DNA from: Pelagomonas calceolata
Lineage: Eukaryota > Sar > Pelagophyceae > Pelagomonadales > Pelagomonadaceae
Assembly: GCA_918797485.1 (NCBI GenBank)
Contig: CAKKNE010000003.1
Span: forward strand, 2,046,001-2,110,000
Reading direction: 5' to 3'
Length of the DNA: 64,000 bases
The position numbers and the translations under genes were made by a program. Shown here piece by piece: positions 38,690 through 57,340 of this stretch. The notes under the pieces are model-generated. The model saw only the letters and a list, made by a program, of their open reading frames with translations. It was not told the DNA's origin and did no database searches. Numbering within the stretch: the first letter of the stretch is position 1; every line of letters begins with the position of its first letter.

Positions 38690-41600
38690 TCAGGGAGGAC
38701 TCGCGTTGCGCTCCCCGGGCGCGGGCGCGGGCGCCGGCGCCGGCGCGAGCGACAGCAGGTCGCTCTCGACGAAGGACGCCGACGCCGACCCCGCCGGCGA
38801 CCGCGGCGAGGGCTCCGGCGTGGGCACGGTGTTGTCGTATTTCACGGGAATCGGACTGGATGGCGGCGACGGCGGCGGCTCTATTACTTCAGAACCGGTC
38901 CAGGGTCCCGCGTAGGAGGGGTGGTCCGGGTTCTCGCAGTCGTACGAATACTTCTTGCTGTTGCGGTCGTCGGGGTCCGACAATCGCGGCGACGGGTCCG
39001 GCCCGTAGAACGTGTCCTGGACGCCCTGGGCGCGCAGTTTCTTCGGTATTCTAGCGATCGTTAACTGCAACCCACCCACCGGCGACGCTTCCACGATCAA
39101 GCGCTTGAGGATGTAGCGCGACACCGTCGCCTGGACCAGTTCCGGGTCCGTCATCCGAGATTCGTCGAACTCGATGAGCTTGATGATTTCCCTCGCACCT
39201 AAGTGCAATTTCGCGGTGTAGGACGTGACCGGATCGTAGGCCTGGATCACCAAGCCGTGGACCGCGGGCTCGCCCGGCGCTCGCGTCGTCACCGTAACCA
39301 CACAATCGCCACCGTGCGGCAGAGCCATGCCCTTGCGCATCACTAAGTCTCCCACAGTTTGTAAAGGTATAAAAGCCAAAGGCACGCCGTGGGGCCGGCC
39401 CTCGCCTTTTATTGGGTCCACTTTTATAGTGGTATCTAGACCTTGATAGGCAGATAACCAGGGCTTCTCGGGCTTGGCTTCTAGCGACAGGGTCATGTCC
39501 GGCAATGGTTCAGGCGCTTCCTCCTCCAAGTCCTTGACGAAGTCCGGGGCCTCCCTTCTTTCATTCCAGTCGCGCTCGGTTTTCAGTTGTTCGGGTGAGG
39601 GGACGTCTTTCAACCGCAAGTGGCGAATCAACCAGTCGATGGCCGCCTTGCGCGGCTCGCCCTGGGCGTGCTCGAGGCAAGGCCGGCCCATGCAGTGGCG
39701 CTGCTCGGCGCCCGTGATTCTTATTTCACACGCTCGCCGGATCCTAGGCACATAGACGTTAAAGTCCAGATCCAACTCCGTATCAATGGCGTGGAATACA
39801 CTGACCACACATTCCGTCCTCCCGACTCGTGTCGAGACTCGGAACAAGCGTCTCCTTTTGGATCGGCGATTAATCCGATCTTCCGCCTTCCTCGGCTTCG
39901 CGCCGTACTGCAACCGCCGATTCCGCTTGTCCTTGGTCTTGTCATGGAGGCGGTAGGGGTCGTCCTCGTCCTCCGTGAGGCCACCGTCGTAGTCGTGGAC
40001 GCCGTCGTCGTCGCCCATGGGCTCCGGCTCGGGACCGTGTAAGAGTGGTGCGGGCCGTCCGCCGGACCAGGGCAGGAAGCAGTCCGGCGGCGCCCGATGC
40101 GAGCACGACAACCGTAATCTCTTCGTGATAGCTAACGCTAAATCGAACCTATGCTTCGGGTTCGCTAATCTAAATGAAGGCGGCGTCCGGTTGGCCTTCG
40201 CACCGTAGTGGGCCAAAGAATCGGCGTCCTCCAGTTGTATAACTTCCCTGCACGCTTCCGGCGGTATGATGAACATGGTACGGTGCTTCGCCAGCGGGTT
40301 CCAGCACACAAACCTCAAATGAGGTAGGGGCAGGCCTTCGTCGAGACCCGACGGCGCGGGCGCCGGCGCCCCGGCGGGCGCTGGCGCCGGCGCCGGCGCC
40401 GGCGCCGGTCCTGAAGCGGGCGTCTCCGGTAATTCAAAGACGTTGACGTGGACCAAGGCGCCGTCGATGGCCTGCGCATGTCTCAAAATCTTCTTGCCTC
40501 GGTGTAAGGCGCCCTGGTCGAAGAGGCGATGCGCGTTCGCGTCCTCGTCATCAGACCCACCCAAGCCGAGAGGCGTCACCTTGAACCGCGCGTCGAAGAT
40601 GCGGTCGGTCGTCCACTTCATCGTGAAGCGATCTTCCTTCTTCACAAATTTATCGGTCTCCTCATCTACTAAACCTTCGCACAGAATCATCCGGTTCTTG
40701 ATCAGGTAGAGGATCATCTCTTCCTCTCTCTCCTGTGCAAGGAGGTGTTGCGCGTCCGGTCCGAGCGTCATTCTGAGATGCTTCAAATCTTCGATAATCG
40801 CACATTCGGCGCCCGACGTCGTATGTCGGTACGCTTCGAATCGCAACTGCCTCACGGCAACGCCCGACGTGTACTGCTCGAAGACCTTGACAAAGACGAG
40901 CTCCTTGGCCAGTCCCAAATCATCTACCGAAGGCCACGTCTCGGGCTCGAGCGGCTTTATAGATGTTCTGACACCTTGCTGGAAGATGAGGCGCATGTCC
41001 GTGATGACCGTTTCTTCTATTTCCGGAGGCGCCTCGGCCTCCGCGACCTCGATGGCGGCCGCCGGCGCTGGTGCTGGTGAGGGTGCGGGTGCTGGTGCGT
41101 CTGAAACCTCTTCAGGTGGAGGTGGTAGCTGACTCGGGTCGTCGAACCAGACCAACTGCGAAAAGTCGCCCTTCGGCGGTGGTGGTGGGAGTCGGTGTTC
41201 ATAAAATACAGTAGGAGGCGGTCTCCGGAACTTGACACTATGTTCCAATGAACCATCGTGCTCCTCGACGACTCGCTCCCTAGGATGGCCGAAGGTCGAC
41301 TGTTCGCCCGCGAAGCGTCGATGGAACGGCGCGTCACTCCCTTCTAACTCCTCGCGCGACGGCGGCCGTCTAGGTTTCAGTTTCAGAGGCGAGCCCTGTT
41401 TCTTCTTGCGCCGCAGTTCATTCGATACGGCCCTTAGTAGAACTTCGCCCGACTCCTTATCTCTAGTTAATCCATCAACCAGCTTCTGGATGCCTTCTTC
41501 TCTCGTATCTTTATTCCCTAGGACCGTAAAGACGGGCCTCGCTGGGTGCAGGTCCGTGTCCTCGAGCTCCCAGAGCTCGATGAGCCGCTCGCGCGTCACG

Positions 41601-44600
41601 CAGATCTCCGTTTGTTTGGCCGGTCGTAGCTCCATCACTTTGACAATCAAACCTTCCCCATCGCCGGCTTTCAGTTCTATCGTGAGTCGACACCGCAGAC
41701 CCTTGATCTTGCACGCCTTGTGGACGACGGTGCTGTCGAAGGTCACGCCGTCCTGATCTAAGATAGCGCCGCTGTCCGCCCCCGGGTGCTCCGTCGGCAG
41801 ATATTTTATCGTTCGTTCACCATCCTCTTCATCAGAATTGTAGCCTTCTAGCAAGCCCGAGACGCGCTTCCGTCGCAGAGATAATCTCTTGATGAGTGAT
41901 TCCCTCCAGAGACGCCAGTCGCCACCGATCGAATCCAACAGTACGGCTCGATGCGTGTCCGCCAAGCGCAACTCGCGCGTCTCCGCGGACATGGGGTCGT
42001 AGAGCACGATCCGCAATATTCGCTTGGCCGCACCGCCGGCCTCCATGACACTCAGAACAACTTTCATGTTCGAGATCGTGGCGAACTGCTTGAAGATCGT
42101 CCGGCCGGGGCCCTTGCACTGTCTCAACCGCAGCTTGAAGCCCGCACTCCGCTTGGCCCCGCCCGCGTCCTGCGAGGCCAATCGTAGATAATGAGATAAA
42201 GACCCCATGTCCTCGGCGGAGGCCTTCGAGGGCACGATCTCCATGCGGTCCGCGATGTAGGGCAGCATGGTCTCGGCGTCGTGCGACTCGAGCGCGGACA
42301 TCTCCCTTATCTTGGGATCCGCATTACCAGTGGCCACATCATGTAACAAATCCATGCCGACCGCCGTTTCCAATGATGCTGACCTTTCTGGCAGGTAGGC
42401 GTGCACTCTCAACTCCCCTCGCGCTTCCTCGTAGACTGTGAGCGTGCATAGGTAGCCCGAGATCCTTCGCGTTTCTCGCATGAGTCGTCGTAGTCTCCTA
42501 CGACATAGTAGTTGGGGCGGTGTGACCTTCTGCAGCTTCTTCGAGCGCGGCGGCTTCGCCAATAACGACAGCTTGGACTTTGCTACTGGTCTATTGGCTA
42601 ACGCCTGATTCGCGCCGCGCTTCACGACGAGTAATTTGACCAAGCGCGCGTACATCTCCTTGAGGGAGCGGGGTGGTAATTTTGCGGTGTGTTCCCGGTG
42701 CTCGATGGAATTCGGTGCTAGTAACCGATCGACATCACGTTCGTGGATAGACGTGACGAGACGAGTCGACGTCGACGGATCATAGGCGCTGAAGAAGATC
42801 CTACCACAATCATGAGCAACGTTGACGTTGTAGATGCAGTCCGGCGCGATCGTGCCGTCGTCGTGAGGTATTCTCGTTGATGCTAACTTAGCAGCACATC
42901 TATAACCTCGGCAGTCCTCCAAAGCAGCATCGAGCAACTGCGCCGACGCGGCCTTGTAGCCGCGGCCCGCCGCTTCCGACTCCTCCTCGAGCTCCGTGTG
43001 GCCATCCGACACGGTAACGACCGAAGACACCAGGTCGGGCGGTTCCTGCCGCGAGATCGTCGGCGCCGCACCACCGTTCTTCGCGAGGTAATCGCCCGCA
43101 CTCACGACGGCCTTGATCCAGTTGATCAGAGGCCCGAGAGCGTGTTCTACCGTCGGGCCGCCCGTGTCGTTGGAGACATAGGTGTCCTCGTCCGGAGCTT
43201 CGGGATCCGTGATGAGCGAAGCGCCCTCGTGCACAATAATCTCCGTGATGGGCCAGTTCTCGTGGGCGATGTATTCCTTGAGGACGAACAGTGTCTGGGG
43301 CGGGATGGTCGCCGCGTCGAAGTCTCTTAATTTGGCCACTAACTCAACAGGTCTCGCTAACAATCTTCGAGCAGCCAGCCAGGCCACGGCGGTCACCGTC
43401 CGGTCCGGACCTCGGAACTTTCGGGACCTCGTTAGCAATATGATAGCGGCCTCCATCGCTAAAGCATGACCTAAGGACGGCGGCCGCTCTTGGGTGCTCC
43501 ACGACGCTAGATTCTCAAGCGCTTCATTTTCAGTTAAACGCGCAAGATGCTCCGCCGCGTCCTGCAAGTCGCATTTCAAGTTCCGGTCGTGCATCTTATC
43601 TAGGTCTTGGATACTAACACCGTAGTGGCCCGAGGGACTCGGTGCGCACGCGCCTCGTCGGTTGCGCGCGTCGCCCAGCACCAAAATAACTCTGGGAGTG
43701 GGGAACAACGCCGCCTTGCAGAACGCCAACGCGTCGATGAACATGTGTCTACAGTCGTGGGCGACACCAGAGTCAACATCCGCCAAAACGGATTTACCCA
43801 CACTGAGAGGTGCTTGAAACGCCTCCGGATCAATACCCTGCGGCAGATCCGAACAAACGCGAACAAATTCGCCCTCGAGTTCGTTACATAGTCTATCGAC
43901 AATCTTCCGCTTGGCCACCGACGGAATGTCCCGCGCGACCAGCACGAGCAGAGGTCGAGGCCTCGGAGGCGGGCTCTTTTCGTGCTCCTCGAGCTCGTGT
44001 TCAGCCTTCGGCGGTCCCGTATCATCATCCAAAGCTTTCTCGTAGATCTCGATGCCCTGTTTGCGGACGTGAACTGCTCCTAACTGTTGAGCCAATTCCT
44101 CCTCGGCCTGTCTAGCTTTACGTTTTGCCTCCGCGGCCCGTTCCATGGCGAGTTGCGGCAGGAACGGCTCGGGCACGAAGCGCTTGTCGAGCATCAGCTC
44201 CTCGACGGCGCAGAACTCGTCCTCGCGGCAGTCTTCGGCCTTTTCCTCGTCCGTGGCGTCGAGCGCGGCGACGGGTTTTTGATCTCTGGCCCGCTCGTCG
44301 TCCTCCGTCTTGGTTATTTCACATTCTAATTCTTCCCGTACTCGTTTTAGCGCTTCTTCCGCGTCCCGCAGCCGCGTCGCGCAGTCGTCCATTTCGGCGT
44401 CGAAGGCCTTTAACTCAGCATCATCTTGCTCATTTAGTCTTGCTAAGTCACTTCCACGTTGTCGAGACCAGACCTGCTGCTGTTTATTGTCGATTGATGA
44501 GGCAGATGCTCTTACTGCTTTCGCGGCCATCTTTCGCACATGGGTCTCTCCTCCTCGCGCGCGGAACCACAGTAGCAGCTTCTCCTTGGCGAGAGCGGCG

Positions 44601-47600
44601 GCACACCGCGCTTCGCCGCAGGCCGCGGCTCGATACTTAACTTCCGGGGGCAGCTCGACCACAATCGTCTTTCGTCGCTTGGCCGCGACGGACGCGTTCC
44701 TCCGCACCAGCGCCAATTTCGCGCGAGCCTCCCGCTCGTCGATCCGAGCCTCGGTACAATCACCTCGCATTTTTGGGAGGCGAGATAAAGTGATAGTACT
44801 CCCGGACGTCCGGGCGTCGTGCATGGCCTGCGTCAACGCGTCGTCCGCGTACCTCACACGTTTGAGTGTTTGTTTACAGTCGGCGACGCGCTCGACTTCT
44901 TCTTCCCGGATCTTGATTTCGTCCCTCATACTATGAGCCGCCTCCGCGGCATCATGAGCATTGAGCTCGTCATCAGAAGCTTGGAACCGTAGGCGAGCTT
45001 GTTCTAAACAAGTGGACTCCACCGGAAACTTCTTACCTTCACTCTTCTTCTGCCTCAGGGCGGCCCCACACGCCTCGACGTCGTGCTTGTCGACTAGTTG
45101 CTGGGCTTGCAGCGTGCGTCTTCTGGAGGCACCGAGCCGTCGCCGTATCAACCAATTCGGCGTGCTTTCATCACCACCCAATTGCTCGAAGAAGTCGGCC
45201 TGCACCTCATACACAATTCGTAGGGACTGGACATATGTTAAAAGTTGGACACACGCCTTCCGGCCGACCACTACTCTCTCCATGGCTTCTATCGTCATCG
45301 TCGGGTCATTGTCGTAGGCTCGGAGGAGCTCTAGCGACTGGAGAGGTAGTGATAATAAACGAGGCGGCACGGAAGCGGGCCCCGCCGCCAGGAACCGTAG
45401 TCTCCGCAGCAGCCAGTTGCCCCGTCGCAACACCTTGACGGCCCCGGTCCACGACAGGTCGTTCCGCTCGACCTCCATGGGGTGCTTCGTCCCTATCGCC
45501 GTGTAGTCTGACAGTGTGGTGCCTAGGGCGCCGCCGCCGTCCTCGCTCAGCATGAGCATGACGATGCGGATGAGTCCTAATACAGCCGCCGGCGGGAAGG
45601 CTAGCCGAGCGTCGACCTGGGCCTCTTGGATTGCGGTTGCTAATTCTTTTAAGTCCTGGGCGAAGAGCTTTCTTACAGAAACTGCTTCCGCGGCAGCTAG
45701 GGCCTTCCTTCTTAATTCTTTCCGTCTCGAGACGCGTCGACGAGCCGATCTGCCCCTTTGAGCGGTCTGGATCTTAACGGCCGCCTTTTGCTGGTGGCTG
45801 CGTTCCCGCAACACATAATATCTAGCGCGAGCTTGCCTCCCGCGTGTAACTCTCTGTATATTATTCGCGGCGTACCTCGCGGTTCGTATCTTCTTCGCAT
45901 AGATACGGGATAACTTCCCGCGGATCCCCGCGGCGATGATCGTCGCCGCGCGCGCGTAGACCCGTCTTAATCGCTTAGCGTACAACCGTGCCAGCTTCCC
46001 GCGGACCATGCGAGTGATCGAGGTGGCCGACACGTCTTCGAGCGTGCGCGCCTTGCGCTCGTCCGCGGGATGGACGCCGCCCGGCGGCAACAACCGCCGC
46101 GCCCGCTCCAACTCCACGGCGCGACGCTTGTCCTCGATCTCGCGTTCACTCCTTTTGAGGGACTGCCTTTCTTTTTGTCTTTTTTCGTAGTCGTGCGTCC
46201 TTAGCTTGAAAGCTTGTTCTAACTCTTCAACGCGCTTCTCGGCCTTCCTGACGTCGTCTCTCAACTCCTGGGCGCGGCGCCGAGCCTCTTCCCTAGCGGC
46301 CTTGCCGCGCTGCGCTCGCTGGATCTCCGCGGCCGACTTCTTTTGTGTAGCAGCATCTCGCGCCGCGGCCTCCGCTTCCAAGCGATCCGCATCTCTTTCT
46401 AAGAGTTGGATCTCCTCCAAATCAGCCTTCATCTCGACTCGGACGGCTTTGGCCTCTCTTTCTAACCGAGAAGCTTCCCGTTTGAGTCGTCCGATGTCCG
46501 CGTCGAGAGCAGCACCTCTTGATCTACGAGTCGGTGCTCTTCTCCGACCCATCGTCGAGGCCGATTGCAGCGGCCCCAGCGCACCCGACGCGCGCATGGC
46601 GCCGCTCCGCGCGTTCTCCTCGTCCTGCTCCGACTTCACGGGTGCTTTTTGCGGGTCGTCGGCGATCGCCCTTCTAGACCATCTTCTTTTACCTTCTTCG
46701 ACTTCGTCTCCGGAACTTACATCTTGGTAGCCGATGCCGGCGGGGCCCGCGTAGGGCGCCATATGTTTAGGTGCCCGCGCCGGCTCGTCGAGCGGTCTAC
46801 CTCTATCCAACTCTAAACGTTTGCGATGTTCCTCCTCTTCTACTTGTAGAGCTGGTACTAACTGCCCGTCGTGGTTCCGCGCGAAGCGGCCTTCCCTGCC
46901 TTCCTCGTCGAGAATCACTAATTCAGCGGCTCGGACGCGCTTCAAATCAGCGTCACCAACTAAAACTTTCAGCGGTGCTGATTCACCTTTCCGTTGCGGC
47001 TTCTGCGGCTCATCTTCAACAATAACGCGAGTCTTCTTTTTCTTCGTATCCGTAGCTAGGAGAGCGGGATCATTGACCACCGGAGTCCTATAAGGTCCCT
47101 TCGTTTGTTTGGGCCGCACGCCCATGCCCGGTCGCGGACCTGTCATGGGGTCGTCGCCGTACAGGATCGAATCCTCGTCCTCCTCGTCCTGTGCGGGAAT
47201 CACGTCTCTCTCTGTGCTTGATAACGTACGATGGTCCAAAGGTAAAGGCATCAAAAAAGGGTTCCTTTGTAACGTAAAACCGGCCCACCTCCGTAATGCC
47301 GGTAGCAAGTTCAAATCATCGAGATCCGACGGTATTTTGAGTAAGTAATTAATCCCATTCCACAGGAACGGCATCGGCTTCCCGTCATCAGCGTCGCCGA
47401 TGGCCAAACGCCACCTCACGACGTGCTCGACGACTTCCGTCGTCGAGGTTCTTAACAAGTCGAACAGATCCCCGAGACCCTTGGGGACCCTTTTCAGATC
47501 ATTGGTCTGCAACCAAGAGTTGATGACGCTCTCGAGCCTCTTTAGGTAGCCCTCCCTTAACAAGATCGTCTTGAGCACTTCGAGCTCCTGGCCGGGCTCC

Positions 47601-48142
47601 TTGCCCGCCTTCGCCTGCCACTCCTCCTCAGGAGCAGGTGGTGGCGTTCTAGGGGATCTTCTCAAAGCAGTGGACGTCTCGCCCGTCAAAGGCCGTAAGC
47701 GCTCCGTGTTCGGCAGCGTGTCGCCCGGAGAAATAATAGGTGGGGCGCCGCCGTACGTAATCCCTCCTGATAATGTAGACAGCGTAAAGTTCGTCCGCGG
47801 CAGGTCCACGGCCGGCAGGGACCGCTGCCGCGTCGACCGCTCGGGCGTCCGCACTCTACCAGTAGTAGGCTCCGTCACGGGCTCTAACCGCCGCGGCGTC
47901 TTCGCGCGGCCCTGCTGCTGCCGCCCCGGCGCCGTCTTCGACAATTGGTCCTGCCGCACGCGGCGTGCTACTTCTTTTTGGCGGCGCCTGTACTGAGCCG
48001 TTTGCGCGCTCGGGCAGTACTTGTCGCCGCTGGGGTCGTAGTCGGGGATCCGCGCCCGCGTCGTGTCGAAGGTCGTCAGGTCGTCCCTAGCATCGGCGCC
48101 GACGGTCTTGGCCTTGTCCTTCTTGTCGGCGCGGCGGCTCAT
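38690..48142 (-). CDS. Giant IQ-motif and coiled-coil protein with about eight beta-rich repeats (3,150 aa)
   Basis: Single open frame from ATG 48142. Residues 1-400 are charged and disordered, with a helical stretch (EVLKTILLREGYLKRLESVINSW in positions near 200). Coiled coil about 530-665. Three or four IQ-type calmodulin-binding motifs about 690-790 (for example IQRVTRGRQARARYY and IQTAQRGRSARRR). A second coiled coil about 1080-1360. A conserved-looking globular block follows (about 1390-1700: LLVLVARDIPSVAKRKIVDRL), without a P-loop. From about 1745 to 3010 a beta-rich unit recurs about eight times, with pattern basic start, short strands, then (A/V)YDP or similar and (E/R)LRL. Ala-Pro runs occur near 2330, 2590 and the C-terminus. 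I do not recognise the family; a cytoskeletal or axonemal scaffold is possible. It is divergent from the NACHT gene. Confidence 0.7.
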   Translation of the reverse strand: MSRRADKKDKAKTVGADARDDLTTFDTTRARIPDYDPSGDKYCPSAQTAQYRRRQKEVARRVRQDQLSKTAPGRQQQGRAKTPRRLEPVTEPTTGRVRTPERSTRQRSLPAVDLPRTNFTLSTLSGGITYGGAPPIISPGDTLPNTERLRPLTGETSTALRRSPRTPPPAPEEEWQAKAGKEPGQELEVLKTILLREGYLKRLESVINSWLQTNDLKRVPKGLGDLFDLLRTSTTEVVEHVVRWRLAIGDADDGKPMPFLWNGINYLLKIPSDLDDLNLLPALRRWAGFTLQRNPFLMPLPLDHRTLSSTERDVIPAQDEEDEDSILYGDDPMTGPRPGMGVRPKQTKGPYRTPVVNDPALLATDTKKKKTRVIVEDEPQKPQRKGESAPLKVLVGDADLKRVRAAELVILDEEGREGRFARNHDGQLVPALQVEEEEHRKRLELDRGRPLDEPARAPKHMAPYAGPAGIGYQDVSSGDEVEEGKRRWSRRAIADDPQKAPVKSEQDEENARSGAMRASGALGPLQSASTMGRRRAPTRRSRGAALDADIGRLKREASRLEREAKAVRVEMKADLEEIQLLERDADRLEAEAAARDAATQKKSAAEIQRAQRGKAAREEARRRAQELRDDVRKAEKRVEELEQAFKLRTHDYEKRQKERQSLKRSEREIEDKRRAVELERARRLLPPGGVHPADERKARTLEDVSATSITRMVRGKLARLYAKRLRRVYARAATIIAAGIRGKLSRIYAKKIRTARYAANNIQRVTRGRQARARYYVLRERSHQQKAAVKIQTAQRGRSARRRVSRRKELRRKALAAAEAVSVRKLFAQDLKELATAIQEAQVDARLAFPPAAVLGLIRIVMLMLSEDGGGALGTTLSDYTAIGTKHPMEVERNDLSWTGAVKVLRRGNWLLRRLRFLAAGPASVPPRLLSLPLQSLELLRAYDNDPTMTIEAMERVVVGRKACVQLLTYVQSLRIVYEVQADFFEQLGGDESTPNWLIRRRLGASRRRTLQAQQLVDKHDVEACGAALRQKKSEGKKFPVESTCLEQARLRFQASDDELNAHDAAEAAHSMRDEIKIREEEVERVADCKQTLKRVRYADDALTQAMHDARTSGSTITLSRLPKMRGDCTEARIDEREARAKLALVRRNASVAAKRRKTIVVELPPEVKYRAAACGEARCAAALAKEKLLLWFRARGGETHVRKMAAKAVRASASSIDNKQQQVWSRQRGSDLARLNEQDDAELKAFDAEMDDCATRLRDAEEALKRVREELECEITKTEDDERARDQKPVAALDATDEEKAEDCREDEFCAVEELMLDKRFVPEPFLPQLAMERAAEAKRKARQAEEELAQQLGAVHVRKQGIEIYEKALDDDTGPPKAEHELEEHEKSPPPRPRPLLVLVARDIPSVAKRKIVDRLCNELEGEFVRVCSDLPQGIDPEAFQAPLSVGKSVLADVDSGVAHDCRHMFIDALAFCKAALFPTPRVILVLGDARNRRGACAPSPSGHYGVSIQDLDKMHDRNLKCDLQDAAEHLARLTENEALENLASWSTQERPPSLGHALAMEAAIILLTRSRKFRGPDRTVTAVAWLAARRLLARPVELVAKLRDFDAATIPPQTLFVLKEYIAHENWPITEIIVHEGASLITDPEAPDEDTYVSNDTGGPTVEHALGPLINWIKAVVSAGDYLAKNGGAAPTISRQEPPDLVSSVVTVSDGHTELEEESEAAGRGYKAASAQLLDAALEDCRGYRCAAKLASTRIPHDDGTIAPDCIYNVNVAHDCGRIFFSAYDPSTSTRLVTSIHERDVDRLLAPNSIEHREHTAKLPPRSLKEMYARLVKLLVVKRGANQALANRPVAKSKLSLLAKPPRSKKLQKVTPPQLLCRRRLRRLMRETRRISGYLCTLTVYEEARGELRVHAYLPERSASLETAVGMDLLHDVATGNADPKIREMSALESHDAETMLPYIADRMEIVPSKASAEDMGSLSHYLRLASQDAGGAKRSAGFKLRLRQCKGPGRTIFKQFATISNMKVVLSVMEAGGAAKRILRIVLYDPMSAETRELRLADTHRAVLLDSIGGDWRLWRESLIKRLSLRRKRVSGLLEGYNSDEEDGERTIKYLPTEHPGADSGAILDQDGVTFDSTVVHKACKIKGLRCRLTIELKAGDGEGLIVKVMELRPAKQTEICVTRERLIELWELEDTDLHPARPVFTVLGNKDTREEGIQKLVDGLTRDKESGEVLLRAVSNELRRKKKQGSPLKLKPRRPPSREELEGSDAPFHRRFAGEQSTFGHPRERVVEEHDGSLEHSVKFRRPPPTVFYEHRLPPPPPKGDFSQLVWFDDPSQLPPPPEEVSDAPAPAPSPAPAPAAAIEVAEAEAPPEIEETVITDMRLIFQQGVRTSIKPLEPETWPSVDDLGLAKELVFVKVFEQYTSGVAVRQLRFEAYRHTTSGAECAIIEDLKHLRMTLGPDAQHLLAQEREEEMILYLIKNRMILCEGLVDEETDKFVKKEDRFTMKWTTDRIFDARFKVTPLGLGGSDDEDANAHRLFDQGALHRGKKILRHAQAIDGALVHVNVFELPETPASGPAPAPAPAPAPAGAPAPAPSGLDEGLPLPHLRFVCWNPLAKHRTMFIIPPEACREVIQLEDADSLAHYGAKANRTPPSFRLANPKHRFDLALAITKRLRLSCSHRAPPDCFLPWSGGRPAPLLHGPEPEPMGDDDGVHDYDGGLTEDEDDPYRLHDKTKDKRNRRLQYGAKPRKAEDRINRRSKRRRLFRVSTRVGRTECVVSVFHAIDTELDLDFNVYVPRIRRACEIRITGAEQRHCMGRPCLEHAQGEPRKAAIDWLIRHLRLKDVPSPEQLKTERDWNERREAPDFVKDLEEEAPEPLPDMTLSLEAKPEKPWLSAYQGLDTTIKVDPIKGEGRPHGVPLAFIPLQTVGDLVMRKGMALPHGGDCVVTVTTRAPGEPAVHGLVIQAYDPVTSYTAKLHLGAREIIKLIEFDESRMTDPELVQATVSRYILKRLIVEASPVGGLQLTIARIPKKLRAQGVQDTFYGPDPSPRLSDPDDRNSKKYSYDCENPDHPSYAGPWTGSEVIEPPPSPPSSPIPVKYDNTVPTPEPSPRSPAGSASASFVESDLLSLAPAPAPAPAPGERNASPP

Positions 48143-48531: not shown

Positions 48532-51500
48532 ATGGGCGGCGGTGTATCATCTCTCCCTGCAGAGGTCTCGCTTGCTGAGGCCAAGGAGCTGGCGGGCGCC
48601 AAGTGGCAGCCCGCGTGGGAGGAGAAGTTCGCGGAAGCCAAGATCTCCAGGGACGAGGCAATACAATGCTGGAAAGAGTCCAAGGCCACGATCTCCGAGG
48701 CGCTCTACGAGAAGCTCCACGGCGTCGACCGCTCCGGTGTTGCCGAGGCGCTGGACTTTTCGGCCATAATTGCAGAGAAGCGCGGGCAGCACCTACCCGG
48801 CACGCGCGAGTGGGTCTTCGAGGCGGTCATGCGCTGGCGGACGGATCCGGAAGCTGCGAAGCTCTTCTGGCTCGTCGGTGGCGGCGGCACGGGCAAGAGC
48901 GTCGCCGCGGCCGAGTTGCTGGCGCGACTGCTCGACAAACAAAACGCAGCCGCGTGGCACTTCTGCAAGCACACCGAGCCGGCGCGGTCCGCGCCAGCGA
49001 CACTTTTGCGGTCGCTGGCGGGCATGCTTTGCGCGACGGTCGATGGATTCGAGGAGGCGCTGCGCGAGGGCGGCGGCGGCGACAACGCGACGGACAAGGT
49101 CGACGAGCTCTTCCAGGCGCTGATTGCCGAGCCGCTGCAAAGCGTTGAGGCGCCGCGCGGCGCGGACGACGCTCTGGTGTTGATAATCGACGCGCTCGAC
49201 GAGCTGCCGCGCGACGCGCTCAAGCCGGTGTTGTCGTTGCTCGCGAACGAGCTCAAGACGCTGCCGCCATGGATCAAACTTGTGGTGACGAGCCGCGACG
49301 AGGCTCAGATTAAGGCGTCATTGAAAGGTTACACGCCGTCAGAGCTCCGCGTCGACGAGGCGCGGAACCGGCAAGACGTTCGCGCGTACCTGACGGTACT
49401 CGCGAAGGAGCACGTCGAGCTGGAAGTGACGATGGACTCGCTGCGGCACGAGGTCGAGGCGAAGTTCCCGGGCCTGAAGAATCTCGACACGTTCGCGGAT
49501 CTAGAGGACCCGCTGCGGCGGTCGAAGGGCGCGTACGATGACGCCGTCAACGGGGTAGCGGACATCGGCGCCCTCGCTGCGTACAAGGAACGGCGTGATG
49601 TAGACTTGAAGCAAGACAAGAGCGATTTCGAGGCGCTCTATGCCGACGCAGCGCGAGCGCAGAAGATTTTAGTTGACAAGCTCACGCAGCTGCCCGGTGA
49701 TCTCTCAGACCCAGGCGTGAAGGGGCGCGGCTCGGCGCAGCGCAAGCTAAACGACAATTACAAAGGTGATGCCGCGCGCTTCCGAGACCTCAGTCGGGCG
49801 ACAGTCTTGTTCGAGAACGCCGCCGACCTTCTCAAGGTGCTGACCGAACTGGATGGTGGCGGCCTCGGGCTGGAGATCGCTCAATTAAAAAACAAGTTCG
49901 CGAATCCGACGCCGCTCGGCTACCGTGACATGAACTTGAACGTCCGCGTCCAGCTCGGCGACGGCGAGACGCATCTCGCCGAGGTTCAATTAAATTTGAG
50001 GAGCGTTGCGGACGCCAAGCACATCGCCCACGAGCAATACGAAGTGATCCGATTAGCGCTGCCGAAGATGTGTGAAGGTACGAGTGTCGAAGCGGACGCG
50101 CTTGAGGCGTATATCGCTCGTCGCTTGCGGTCTTCGGCGTTGGATGCAGCTGTGACCTCGCTCGAACGGAAGGCCGGCGGACTCATGCTCTACGCACGTC
50201 TCATCGCGGAGCAGCTCGCGTCCACGACGGGCAAGATCGACTTTGCGAGCGTCGGTGCACTTCCCGCGGGCCTCGACGAGATCTACGCGGAGAATTTTCG
50301 ACGCGTGTTTGTCGATGATACTGCATGGTGCGACGCGCTGCCGCTCGTTGAATTAATCTGTGCAGCGGCCGAGCCGTTGACAATTGACGCTGCGAGTGGG
50401 GCGCTCGGCTGGGATCGGGCTCGCTGCGAGGGTCTATGTGCTGAGGTGTCGCTGCTGTTCCCGCTGCGCGAGGGCGACGTGATCGGTGTTTTGCACAAGA
50501 CCGTAACGGACTGGCTAACCGGCGAGGCGCCGTTTGACGGCCGTGGCTGTGAGGACGCGTTCTTCATTGCGCAGGAGTCGGCGCACCGGCGGCTGGCGCG
50601 GGCTTGTGCTCGGGCGGTTCGTGCTGAGGTTCTGGATGCAAAGTCGTACTCGAGCGATGCTGCTGCAGATGCGGCGCTGGCATCATTCGTCAAGGGCGAG
50701 GGCGGCGCTGCGTCGGATGCTTATGCGTTGCGCTGGTGCTTGTTTCACATGAAGCGGTCTTCTGCTGAGGGCGAGGCCGTCGCTGTGGCGTGTGCCTTGT
50801 CGTACGTGCAGAAACGGGTCGATGGCGGCGACGTTGGTGCATTTGCTGGTGACCTCGATGTGCTGGAGGGTCGTGACGCGCTTCTACTCCGCGACGCGCT
50901 CGTGTTGTCACGGAACGCGTTGTCGCAGGGCACTCCACTTGTCGAGCAGTTCTGGCAGCGCATGACACCACGCGCCAATGCGGAGTCGTCTCCTGCCGCG
51001 CGACGCCTGGCCGACGACGCAAAGGGAGTCGCGAGCAAGCTGCCGCTCTCGGCCGTGAGGTCGATGGGTCTGACGGCGGCAGGTGGGGCGGAGCGGTGTC
51101 GTATTGAGGCCGGAGGTGAGTGCACGAGCTTGGCGACGTTCGTGGATCCGGCGACGGGCGAGCCGCGGGTTGCTTGTGGTTTTGAGCATGAAGTGTACAT
51201 CTATGATCCGGTCGCTGGTGGCGCGGCGCTTCTCGTGATTGATGTGGACTCGGATGTGCGGAGGTTAGTGGTCTTCAAAGACCCGGCGACGGGTGAGCCG
51301 CGGCTTGCTTGTGGTTGTTATGATGGGAAGGTGCGCATCTTCGACCCGGTCGCGGGGGGCGAGGCGTTGCTTGTGATCGATGTGGATTATAGCGTGAGTG
51401 CGCTTGTCGTATTTGAGGATCCGGCGACGGGTGCGCTGCGGCTCGCATGCAGTTCTGACGACTGGAAGGTTCGCGTCTTCGACCCGGTCGCGGGTGGTGA

Positions 51501-53004
51501 GGCGCTGCTCGTCCTCGAGATAGGCGACGAAGTGAACGCCTTGGCAGTCTTCAAAGACCCAGCGACGGGCGCGCCGCGGCTCGCGCGCGCGTCGGGAGAG
51601 AAGGTGCTTGTCTTCGATCCGACCGCGGGCGGTGACGCGCTGCTCGTGGTAGATACTGGACACGAAGTGTGGGCACTGGCGGTCTTCAAGGAACCAGCGA
51701 CGGGCGCGCCGAGGCTCGCGTGTGGTTCTACCGATGGAAAGATTCGTGTCTTTGACGCTATTTCTGGTGGCGACGTGCTGCTCGTGCTCGACGCTGGCGA
51801 AGTGGTGAGGGCGCTGGTCGCATTCGATGACCTGGCGACGGGCGAGCTGCGGCTCGCGAGCGGGTCGGAGGACGGAAAGGTGCGCGTCTTCGACCCGGTC
51901 GCGGGCGGCGAGGCGCTGGTCGTGCTCGAGGGGCATGCGGACTATGTGAGGGCTTTGACAGCCTTCACAGACCCGGCGACGGGCGAGCTGCGGCTCGTGA
52001 GCGGATCGGACGACAGCACTGTGCGAGTTTGGAACCCGGCGGCGAGCGGCGCGGCGATCGAGGTGGAGCCCGAGGGGCACTCTGGCATTGTGAGGGCCAT
52101 GGTGACCTTTGTGGATCCGGCGACGGGTGTGCTGCGGGTCGCGACCGGGTCGAACGATGAGACGATTCGCGTGTGGGACGCAGAGACTGGCGGTGGGCTG
52201 CTCGTGATCGACGTTGGTTCTGATGTGTTTGCGTTGGCGTTCTTTGTGGACCCGGCGACGGGCGCGCCGCGGCTCGCTTCTGGCTCTAACGGTGGGAAGG
52301 TGCGCGTCTTCGACCCGGTCGCGGGCGGCGAGGCGCTGGTCGAGCTCGACGCCGGCAACACCGCGTATGCGCTGGCGTTCTTCGCGGACCCGGCGACGGG
52401 TGCGTCGCGGCTCGCTTGTGGATCAGGTGGTTGGCGTGGTGGGAAAGTGCATGTCTTCGATCCAGTCGCGGGGGGCGAGGCGCTGCTCGTGATCGACGTG
52501 AATGCTAAGGCGCTGGCAATGTTCACGGACCCGGCGACGGGCGCGCTGCGGCTTGCTTGTGGTTGTGAGAATGGGGAGGTGCGTATTTACGACCCGCTCG
52601 CGGGCGGCGAGGCGCTGCTCGTACTCGAGGGGCACACGGAATCCGTGGAGGCGTTGACTGTTTTCGAAGACCCGGCGACGGGCGGACTTCGCCTCGCCAG
52701 CGGATCAGACGACAATTCCGTGCGCGTCTGGGACTTGGCGGCGGGTGGTGCGGTGCTGTTTGTGCTCGAGGGACACACGGAGTTTGTTTGCGCGCTGACG
52801 GCCTTCGCGGACCCGGCGACGGGCGAGATGCGGCTCGTGAGCGCGTCGTACGACAAGACTTTGCGGGTATGGGACGTGACCAAGGGCGGTGCGGCGCTGC
52901 GGGTAGTTCCTTTTGAAGATAATGTCTGGGACTTGGCGGCCAGGAACGACAAGAGCGGGCTCTTTGTGGCTTTGGGAAAGCGGTGGGGGGAATTGCGCAT
53001 ATAG
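48532..53004 (+). CDS. NACHT-type STAND ATPase with inserted RelA/SpoT-like domain and 14-blade WD40 array
   Basis: 1,490 residues from ATG 48532. N-terminus MGGGVSS fits an N-myristoylation site. NACHT module: Walker A VGGGGTGKS (116-123), Walker B ALVLIIDALDELP (about 214-226), sensor LVVTSRDE (about 250-257). An inserted block (about 360-512) reads KGRGSAQRKLNDNY, RFRDLSRATVLFE, IAQLKNKFANPTPLGYRDMNLNV, LAEVQLNL and HEQYEVIR. This matches the core pattern of RelA/SpoT nucleotidyltransferase-like domains. The NACHT helical part then resumes (KAGGLMLYARLIAEQL, LPAGLDEIYAENFRRVF). From about 865, thirteen units with FxDPATGxxRLAxGSxDxKVRVFDPVAGGEALLVL-like pattern plus a final partial blade suggest two seven-blade propellers. 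STAND ATPases are signalling or immune switches; an alarmone- or toxin-like effector activity of the insert is inference. Confidence 0.85.
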   Translation: MGGGVSSLPAEVSLAEAKELAGAKWQPAWEEKFAEAKISRDEAIQCWKESKATISEALYEKLHGVDRSGVAEALDFSAIIAEKRGQHLPGTREWVFEAVMRWRTDPEAAKLFWLVGGGGTGKSVAAAELLARLLDKQNAAAWHFCKHTEPARSAPATLLRSLAGMLCATVDGFEEALREGGGGDNATDKVDELFQALIAEPLQSVEAPRGADDALVLIIDALDELPRDALKPVLSLLANELKTLPPWIKLVVTSRDEAQIKASLKGYTPSELRVDEARNRQDVRAYLTVLAKEHVELEVTMDSLRHEVEAKFPGLKNLDTFADLEDPLRRSKGAYDDAVNGVADIGALAAYKERRDVDLKQDKSDFEALYADAARAQKILVDKLTQLPGDLSDPGVKGRGSAQRKLNDNYKGDAARFRDLSRATVLFENAADLLKVLTELDGGGLGLEIAQLKNKFANPTPLGYRDMNLNVRVQLGDGETHLAEVQLNLRSVADAKHIAHEQYEVIRLALPKMCEGTSVEADALEAYIARRLRSSALDAAVTSLERKAGGLMLYARLIAEQLASTTGKIDFASVGALPAGLDEIYAENFRRVFVDDTAWCDALPLVELICAAAEPLTIDAASGALGWDRARCEGLCAEVSLLFPLREGDVIGVLHKTVTDWLTGEAPFDGRGCEDAFFIAQESAHRRLARACARAVRAEVLDAKSYSSDAAADAALASFVKGEGGAASDAYALRWCLFHMKRSSAEGEAVAVACALSYVQKRVDGGDVGAFAGDLDVLEGRDALLLRDALVLSRNALSQGTPLVEQFWQRMTPRANAESSPAARRLADDAKGVASKLPLSAVRSMGLTAAGGAERCRIEAGGECTSLATFVDPATGEPRVACGFEHEVYIYDPVAGGAALLVIDVDSDVRRLVVFKDPATGEPRLACGCYDGKVRIFDPVAGGEALLVIDVDYSVSALVVFEDPATGALRLACSSDDWKVRVFDPVAGGEALLVLEIGDEVNALAVFKDPATGAPRLARASGEKVLVFDPTAGGDALLVVDTGHEVWALAVFKEPATGAPRLACGSTDGKIRVFDAISGGDVLLVLDAGEVVRALVAFDDLATGELRLASGSEDGKVRVFDPVAGGEALVVLEGHADYVRALTAFTDPATGELRLVSGSDDSTVRVWNPAASGAAIEVEPEGHSGIVRAMVTFVDPATGVLRVATGSNDETIRVWDAETGGGLLVIDVGSDVFALAFFVDPATGAPRLASGSNGGKVRVFDPVAGGEALVELDAGNTAYALAFFADPATGASRLACGSGGWRGGKVHVFDPVAGGEALLVIDVNAKALAMFTDPATGALRLACGCENGEVRIYDPLAGGEALLVLEGHTESVEALTVFEDPATGGLRLASGSDDNSVRVWDLAAGGAVLFVLEGHTEFVCALTAFADPATGEMRLVSASYDKTLRVWDVTKGGAALRVVPFEDNVWDLAARNDKSGLFVALGKRWGELRI
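49610..50066 (+). other. RelA/SpoT-like domain inserted in the NACHT module
   Basis: Residues about 360-512 of the NACHT protein. The sequence has the Arg/Lys-rich start (RGSAQRKL), the RDLSRATVLFE strand-helix, the KNKFANPTPLGYRD substrate loop, AEVQLNL strand and HEQYE helix, in the order typical of RelA/SpoT synthetase-type folds. The block separates the NACHT sensor region (up to about 300) from its C-terminal helices (from about 525), which in related fungal and bacterial proteins are adjacent. A fold-level assignment only; catalytic competence is not shown. Confidence 0.65.
51115..53001 (+). repeat. WD40-repeat array with high DNA-level similarity between units
   Basis: Thirteen full units of roughly 130-150 bases plus a partial one. 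Blocks such as GACCCGGCGACGGGCG and GACCCGGTCGCGGGCGGCGA recur almost unchanged between units. Synonymous similarity this high suggests recent amplification or conversion rather than ancient blades. Confidence 0.8.
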
Positions 53005-55619: not shown

Positions 55620-57340
55620 ATGGCCGCCATGGAGCTGGAAGCGAACAAAAAGGACGACCGCCTGCCCGTCACGATCCTGAGCGGCTTTTTGGGCGCGGGC
55701 AAGACCACATTACTAAAACACATGCTCACGAACCGCGGCGGCGTCCGCGTCGCGCTCTTGGTGAACGACGTCGGCGCCGTCAACCTGGACGAGAAGCTCA
55801 TCAAGGAGTCGCGACTAGTAAGAGCAAACGAGAAATTAGTAGAACTGACCAACGGGTGCATCTGCTGTACACGTAGAGACGACTTGTTAAGAGAAGTGAA
55901 AGAGTTAAGTGAATTGAGGCACGAGACGGAAGATAAACGGAGGTTCGACTGCTTGGTAGTAGAGTCCACAGGAGTCTCGGACCCCCGGTCCGTAGCGCAA
56001 GCCTTCGCCACGGACGAGGACCTCGCGACACGAGCGCGCCTCGACACGTTAGTCACGGTCGTCGACGCGTCCGCCTTCAGTGAAAACTTCAGCAGCGTGA
56101 ACACGGCCATGGAAGCGGGCATGCACGACGGCCACGACCACTCTACAAAAGAAGAAGAAGAGGCTTGTGAGGATGCCGTCATGTCGGAAAACGTGGTCGA
56201 TCTCCTCGTCAGTCAGGTCGAGTTCGCGGACACTATATTGTTGAATAAAAGTGATTTAGCGACGCCAGCTCGCCTGAAACAAGCTCGTATCACGTGCGAG
56301 AGTGCTCTTGCGGCGCCCGTCCTTTATTATCTTCGCGTTGTTCGCGTCGGCATCGCGTGCCACGTCCACGTCGCGTCGATGGCGCCACGTGTCACGCCAT
56401 CGACGCGATGCCCCACGCAGAGCTCAATCCGAGGGCTACGGTCTTGGAAACGACTAATTCAGCCGCACCGCTAGATCAACTCCTCTTAACAAATAGGTTC
56501 GACTTCGAAGCCACATCCACGGCCGCCGGCTGGGTCCAATCGTTAAAACAAGCGGGCTCGGGCAGAGATACGACGCTGGGCGGCATAGGGTTCCAAAATT
56601 TCGTCTATAAGAAAAGGACGCCGTTCCATCCCAAGAGGTTGCACGATTTTCTGGCGGAGCATTTCGTGTTCTACGAGGTGTCTTCTTCTACTGGAGAATC
56701 TTCAGAAGAAGGCAGTGCCGACCCCGAGAAGACCCTGGAGCAGAGACGAGCGCGAGCCGCCAAAAATTCAAAGAAGTTCGGTACTCTCCTAAGATCAAAG
56801 GGCTGGTTCTGGATCGGCAACCGGCCCGTGGGCATCGGGGAGTGGTCGCAAGCAGGAGTCATAGGCAGATTAGGATGTAACGCGCAGTGGCGCATCACGG
56901 CGCCCGAGGAGTACTGGCCGGAACAGGGCACTCCCGAACGGGCCAAGTTCGTCGAGGATTTCCCCGACGACGAGAAGGACGAGGATTATGAAGATTTAGA
57001 TCAAGTCACGGCTATCGGCGACCGGCGGAACGAGATCGTGTTCATCGGGATTGACCTGGAAAGGGATAAATTGGAGAAGGCCCTCGACGCGTGTCTGTTG
57101 ACGACGCAGGAGTGGATGCAGCACCAGCAGTGGCACCAGGCGCAGGTCGATCGCATCGAGGCGGCAGAAGCGAAGGTGAAGCTGACTGGGGATGCGGACG
57201 TCGATGCGGAAGCGAAGCGGGCGGCCGTCGAAGCCTTGCCCGAGGTGCCGGCGCCCTTGGATGGTGTGGACCCGTTCGAGCCGTGGCCGGACTTTGAGGA
57301 CGAGGAGGAGGACGACGAGGAGATGGAGATGGGGGACTGA
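55620..57340 (+). CDS. CobW/COG0523 GTPase (ZNG1-like metallochaperone), with one intron
   Basis: G3E-family GTPase that delivers metal, in eukaryotic ZNG1 zinc to methionine aminopeptidase. Exon 1 from ATG 55620 has Walker A SGFLGAGKTTLLKH, NDVGAVNLD, the metal-binding CICC in NGCICCTRRDD, VESTGVSDP, a His/Glu-rich loop (DGHDHSTKEEEEA) and guanine-specificity NKSD. Exon 2 has LNPRATVLETTNSAAPLDQLL, then the CobW C-terminal domain (RTPFHPKRLHDFL, GWFWIGNRPVGIGEWSQAG). The frames change between 56287 and 56422. Two models fit: intron 56319-56422 (phase 0) or 56287-56420 (phase 1). The C-terminus is a highly acidic tail (FEDEEEDDEEMEMGD). About 538 residues in the first model, longer than bacterial CobW proteins. 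Confidence 0.85.
56319..56422 (+). other. CobW intron with introner-type hairpin
   Basis: Contains the perfect inverted arms CGCGTCGATGGCG and CGCCATCGACGCG (56375-56410). The first includes GCGTCGATGGCG, the half-site also found in the two clear introners. An outer pair GGCATCGCGT and ACGCGATGCC flanks it. No 13-base terminal repeats or clear target duplication are visible, so it may be a different or older introner type. Boundaries uncertain. Confidence 0.6.

Follow-up and report, generated by a model that had tools for sequence, protein, structure and literature searches.

A Tas1-like SYNTH domain inside the STAND module of a NACHT-WD40 protein family in Pelagomonas calceolata

The window analyzed here is a stretch of 64,000 nucleotides from the pelagophyte Pelagomonas calceolata (contig CAKKNE010000003.1, positions 2,046,001 to 2,110,000). 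Its gene of interest occupies 48532..53004 (+) and appears in the list of open reading frames (ORFs) as a single open frame of 1490 residues. The protein begins with MGGGVSS (residues 1-7; 48532..48552, +), which reads as an N-myristoylation-like start. A NACHT-type P-loop ATPase follows at residues 90-255 (48799..49296, +), matched above cut-off by Pfam NPHP3_N (PF24883, E 1.1e-24) and NACHT (PF05729, E 1.6e-8); Walker A, GGGGTGKS (residues 116-123; 48877..48900, +), and Walker B, IIDALDEL (residues 218-225; 49183..49206, +), were placed on its sequence. The C-terminus consists of superstructure-forming repeats, a WD40 array of ~46-residue units (residues ~872-1490; 51145..53001, +) evident in Pfam (E 3.2e-41), in the unit spacing and in tandem repeats of 135-147 bases. 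A weak HAB match (E 0.016) lies below cut-off. An initial annotation had described this gene as a NACHT-WD40 switch with a RelA/SpoT-like domain spliced into its ATPase module, and every motif it quoted was found again in the ORF where it had been reported.

That inserted domain is a RelA/SpoT-type SYNTH domain spanning residues ~364-515 (49621..50076, +). The best Protein Data Bank (PDB) match of the insert profile is the type VI effector (p)ppApp synthetase Tas1/Apk1 (PDB 6ox6; E 4.7e-16, 62.4 bits), the next match scoring 40.2 bits. An AlphaFold2 (AF2) model of the insert has an alpha/beta fold of the SYNTH type, for which Foldseek ranks Tas1 first and fold comparison places Tas1 level with SAS1 and SAS2 (Z within 1). 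Profile, model and fold comparison thus concur with the RelA/SpoT-like fold claimed initially. A transcriptome (MMETSP) relative shares 78% identity within the insert.

The hidden Markov model search with PF04607 that the initial annotation had proposed left the window insert without a match, and the window gene is absent from the seven PF04607 matches in its own genome. Own-genome searches covered 32,445,274 bases in 8 contigs; for the species, PMC9481584 gives a size of 32.4 Mb and six nuclear contigs besides one each for plastid and mitochondrion. The family profile and fold comparison were used in place of PF04607. The missing match would suit a protein with no SYNTH domain at all, in which residues 360-512 are extra NACHT helices bearing a chance likeness of motifs. 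PF04607 does recognize 3 of the 22 members of A3, one of the two alignments described below, and the profile is in accord with the alpha/beta fold predicted for the insert and with bridging relatives; sequence profile, AF2 model and fold comparison refute the chance-likeness explanation, which is left with a vanishingly small probability.

The two insert alignments, A1 and A3, have 22 rows each and share the window row. Left out of A1 were L012 (internal stop codon), L021 (ends at residue ~429), L006 (weak), L022-L025 (N-terminal matches listed apart from copies that were already in the count), L027 (insert same as L030) and L028 (same place as L007); 16 remote insert matches lacking an assigned locus were also left out of the alignment. 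A3 adds to the window row 21 typed pieces from 34 representatives of 58 pieces. Ten residues, K397, K405, Y410, D419, R422, K453, G463, D466, E484 and Q486, are invariant in both alignments (22/22 each). Y464, and likewise R or S at position 401, occurs in every row of A1 (22/22) and in all but one of A3 (21/22); N468 is kept in 16/22 and 6/22, respectively. The SYNTH active-site set is therefore present, comprising the phosphate Lys pair, the Asp, the stacking Arg, the G-loop Tyr and E-x-Q, and it stays constant across differing protein architectures. Such conservation across homologues was what the initial annotation had looked for.

Individual motifs can be compared with those of studied enzymes. 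The donor ATP phosphate motif K397-xxx-S401-xxx-K405 (49720..49746, +) has the spacing of FaRel2 K66/S70/K74 (PMC11782079). D419-x-x-R422 (49786..49797, +) is spaced as SaEAS D121/R124, D419 falling on the Asp whose change inactivates SaEAS (PMC12691689). In the stretch with K453 and the G-loop GYRDMN (residues 452-468; 49885..49935, +), K453, G463 and D466 are the residues conserved throughout A1 and A3. E484-x-Q486 (49981..49989, +) aligns with the ATP-binding E/Q of Tas1. By hand count on the profile alignment, four insert residues (R422, E484, Q486 and N468) coincide with residues that PMC12691689 names as ATP-binding in Tas1; that paper writes Q382 where a neighbor of E382 must be meant.

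Purifying selection acts on the insert. Among 12 intact copies of the 14 family loci (66 pairs), the median ratio of nonsynonymous to synonymous divergence (dN/dS) is 0.121 for the ATPase, 0.123 for the insert and 0.150 for residues 530-700; by pair class, the insert ranges from 0.090 to 0.166. These values bear on whether the domain is a pseudo-enzyme, its SYNTH fold serving as a noncatalytic nucleotide-binding or oligomerization module. Absence of an Arg of the FaRel2 R64 type, together with synthetase motifs unlike those of canonical RSHs, would fit such a role. The invariance of active-site-type residues throughout A1 and A3 and the insert dN/dS of 0.12 argue against it, as does Tas1, an active enzyme that deviates from RSHs in the same ways in the profile alignment. 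We consider a pseudo-enzyme quite unlikely.

If the domain is active, its acceptor may be a free nucleotide or tRNA. Toxins of the CapRel/FaRel2 kind pyrophosphorylate 3'-CCA ends of tRNA, and an insert working likewise would halt translation without making a free alarmone. The SYNTH fold is common to both, and CapRel is moreover a ligand-triggered effector. The profile, however, matches Tas1 and alarmone synthetases, with neither CapRel nor FaRel2 among its matches in the PDB up to E 10, and structural identity is 28% to Tas1 versus 13% to CapRel. A tRNA-modifying activity accordingly appears decidedly improbable, and the free alarmone is favored because the sequence profile prefers Tas1. Within the alarmones, N468 and R-x-T point towards adenosine by the signatures in PMC12226406. 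Choosing between (p)ppApp and (p)ppGpp from motifs was nevertheless dropped: motif swaps left specificity unchanged in that study, VpEAS makes only (p)ppGpp, and SaEAS makes both (PMC12691689).

The position of the domain follows from three boundaries. The ATPase match stops at residue 255. A weak match to a TANC1-like AAA-lid, the apparent resumption of the STAND module, begins at residue 533 (residues 533-586; 50128..50289, +) at profile position 39 and covers positions 39-92 of the 96 in PF25520 (E 0.078, below cut-off); in relatives P0010 and P0011 a putative winged helix, HTH_TANC1, follows the lid (0.0028 and 0.00019, both below cut-off). Finally, third-position differences in 30-codon blocks and synonymous divergence (dS) by region delimit a divergent cassette of residues ~311-545 (49462..50166, +) that holds SYNTH and its flanking helices. 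Together these limits put the cassette after the ATPase and before the putative lid and winged helix, C-terminal to Walker A/B, in accord with the resumption of the NACHT module that the initial annotation described. When residues 85-700 were searched against plasmids by tblastn, no NACHT lacking the insert turned up for comparison, and the insertion point is for that reason drawn from family divergence and the weak lid match.

The cassette has a history different from that of its surroundings. The copies were grouped as the window copy, group A (eight copies) and group B (L017-L019). Between B and A plus window, median dS reaches 1.27 over residues 301-362 and 1.78 over the insert; the ATPase stands at 0.59 and residues 530-700 at 0.50. 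Third-position difference between A and B is 0.42-0.67 in blocks 301-330 to 521-550 and 0.15-0.41 in all other blocks. The window copy differs from A by 0.43-0.60 at residues 321-430 and 0.45-0.48 at 501-550, and by 0.29-0.36 at 421-510; this unevenness gives its cassette the look of a mosaic that is partly distinct from those of A. A division into exactly three clean cassette versions is accordingly too sharp a reading. The window copy also diverges beyond the cassette, at residues 761-810 (0.49-0.56). On the simplest reading of these patterns, gene conversion would homogenize the ATPase and the region after the insert, and the ~311-545 cassette would retain its old versions.

The insert is a constant feature of the family. 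NPHP3_N has 18 matches in the genome, 14 strong and four weak (23.7-34 bits), and all 14 strong loci reach the insert. Two of these look decayed: L012 (C6:3554256-3559649) is interrupted by a TAA where the insert lies, and L021 (C5:1009243-1013535) matches only to residue ~429. A tree built from 44 chosen rows unites the nine that are NACHT-borne, P0010 and P0011 among them, in one clade (98/98), best read as a single fusion event. The five canonical RSH loci of the genome stand apart (100/100). Membership in the canonical plastid or bacterial RSH type was rejected on this split and on the replacement of GYxSLH by GYRDMN. The RelA/SpoT assignment thus holds at the level of the superfamily and is refined to the side of Tas1 and the exported alarmone synthetases.

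Beside the NACHT clade stand a Photobacterium protein and P0061 (91/77, not starred). The former, of 262 residues, matches the insert with E 9e-9 and by eye has a signal-peptide-like start; its family, start and motifs suggest a likeness to RelV/VpEAS, and VpEAS is perhaps the nearest bacterial kind. P0061 (717 residues) carries its SYNTH-like domain C-terminally, at residues 532-688, with PF15536 listed. A hypothetical protein of Bordetella phage PHB04 (L039 2071-3552), encoded directly after the portal gene, also matches (E 1e-6). From this position it may be a head protein of the MuF type that bears a SYNTH domain at its C-terminus (PMC12691689).

The N-terminus is conserved alongside the insert. 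MGGG[VI]SS begins 12 of the 14 NACHT loci, MGAG[AGS]S begins 6 of 11 other insert loci examined (two of the six being one duplicated sequence), and the pattern occurs once in the six frames of the window. The membrane attachment proposed initially gains a recurrent motif in this way, and attachment itself is plausible. In L033 (C6:3475719-3478889; 1217 residues, MGGGVSS start) only the first ~54 residues match the family, at 57% identity, which indicates that the N-terminal module is also reused alone.

The WD40 repeats resemble a variable sensor. Among 75 units cut by a simple pattern from nine proteins, three columns reach 3.5-3.75 bits of entropy beside near-invariant ones; in fungal NLRs, WD-repeat binding positions are reported to be under diversifying selection (Dyrka et al., PMC4986451). 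This variability matters for a further alternative, that the protein is an active synthetase for metabolic or nutrient signaling, a eukaryotic stringent response unconnected with immunity or cell death. Canonical RSH loci are indeed present in the genome, as are four loci with HD_4 hydrolase domains, and related SYNTH domains occur in many non-NACHT proteins. Recognition receptors are nonetheless what the multicopy NACHT-WD40 organization, homogenized chassis, diverged cassettes and variable WD40 columns resemble, with a parallel in fungal NLRs (PMC4986451), and we regard a purely metabolic role as unlikely. One HD_4 locus, C6:922960-923382 (-), lies away from the RSH loci; it is the strongest of this alarmone-hydrolase type and a candidate partner hydrolase.

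These observations lead us to favor, with modest confidence, a STAND (NLR-like) switch in which a Tas1-like SYNTH effector separates the P-loop ATPase from the remainder of the STAND module. At rest, the WD40 propellers would hold the protein off. A ligand of viral, bacterial or self-damage origin would trigger exchange of ADP for ATP by the NACHT and oligomerization, which would move or cluster the SYNTH domains. These would then transfer pyrophosphate from ATP onto the 3'-OH of an acceptor, ADP/ATP or GDP/GTP being the likeliest, so that (p)ppApp or (p)ppGpp is made near the membrane to which N-myristoylation may tether the protein. The outcome could be growth arrest, alarm signaling or suicide through ATP depletion.

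Several results count against this switch. PF04607 matches neither the window protein nor the insert, and PADLOC assigned the insert to no defence family. In Foldseek the ~ten best matches have moderate TM-scores (0.43-0.57), and root-mean-square deviations are high. The adenine-stacking R64 of FaRel2 has no counterpart in the insert, nor does Tas1 have an Arg there in the profile alignment. Motifs do not reveal product specificity (PMC12226406, PMC12691689), and the model of residues 1-860, poor outside the insert (mean predicted local distance difference test score 59.9), is no guide to gating geometry.

A comparison with known systems shows both kinship and differences. Fungal NACHT NLRs with RelA_SpoT, some of them bearing WD40, have been in the literature since 2014 (PMC4986451), 14 T-NACHT cases are given for Sordariales (PMC12258605), and fungal RelA_SpoT NACHT NLRs receive comment in PMC10197012. 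The fungal proteins likewise join the three domains in one multicopy NLR family with a variable WD40 sensor; as described in these sources, their RelA_SpoT domain is an effector N-terminal to NACHT, whereas the algal domain (residues 364-515) is internal, C-terminal to Walker A/B. The domain order called undescribed by the initial annotation therefore has a fungal precedent in composition, and what is new in the literature searched is the internal position and the alga: all matches pairing RelA_SpoT with NACHT are fungal by title, and among the matches listed, which cover subscription papers and preprints thinly, there is no algal or internal-position report. Tas1 has D-xx-R, G-Y, N and E-x-Q in common with the insert when the two are aligned, but is a secreted bacterial toxin with an immunity protein, unlike a domain of a eukaryotic STAND protein. 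RelV/VpEAS and SaEAS differ in being secreted and single-domain (PMC12691689). Divergent SYNTH-only proteins, the divRel small alarmone synthetases, were reported in 2011 from diatoms and other eukaryotes, heterokont algae included; the available text of that report describes no NACHT fusion for them (PMC3153485).

An immune-type algal switch with kin among bacterial stress and toxin enzymes hints at unusual nucleotides as a response to threat. If active, it would be an algal NLR-type receptor with an alarmone-making or ATP-draining output, and would connect a widespread, abundant ocean picoeukaryote with fungal RelA_SpoT NLRs, bacterial toxSAS and antiphage CapRel. What the fungal RelA_SpoT NLRs make, and for whom, a question open since 2014, becomes testable in a culturable alga with 12 intact natural variants. 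More speculatively, and with considerable doubt, pelagophytes may run a whole family of sensor-gated, membrane-tethered Tas1-like synthetases as an alarm or suicide system, the NACHT-WD40 branch comprising diverged cassettes (residues ~311-545) on a recombining chassis and sister branches being gated through TPR, helicase, kinase-ankyrin or membrane modules.

Other insert relatives show varied architectures. TPR is strong in L029 and below cut-off in L026; one relatives search, over a pool of proteins near the TPR-type query in length, found 52, of which 46 carry a TPR family. A Schlafen-type helicase domain accompanies the SYNTH-like domain in L027 and L035, and L037 (C1:4751550-4754849) joins a protein kinase, a SYNTH-like domain and ankyrin repeats in one open frame. 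L007, L031, L032 and L034 are large proteins with a SYNTH-like domain and, by eye, apparent membrane segments, L007 being the insert-family member closest to the PF04607 cut-off. L027, L030, L035 and L036 pair MGAG[AS]S starts with a SYNTH-like domain. L027 and L030 have one sequence in common and are located near 267 kb, on contig 1 and contig 5; a 393-kb duplication shared by these contigs is described in PMC9481584. The L030 frame departs and ends early.

Within the window, an ORF of 3150 residues with IQ-like and coiled-coil stretches by eye lies just upstream of the gene on the opposite strand (38690-48142, -), and an ORF at 55620-56474 (+) resembles by eye a CobW-type GTPase (SGFLGAGKTT).
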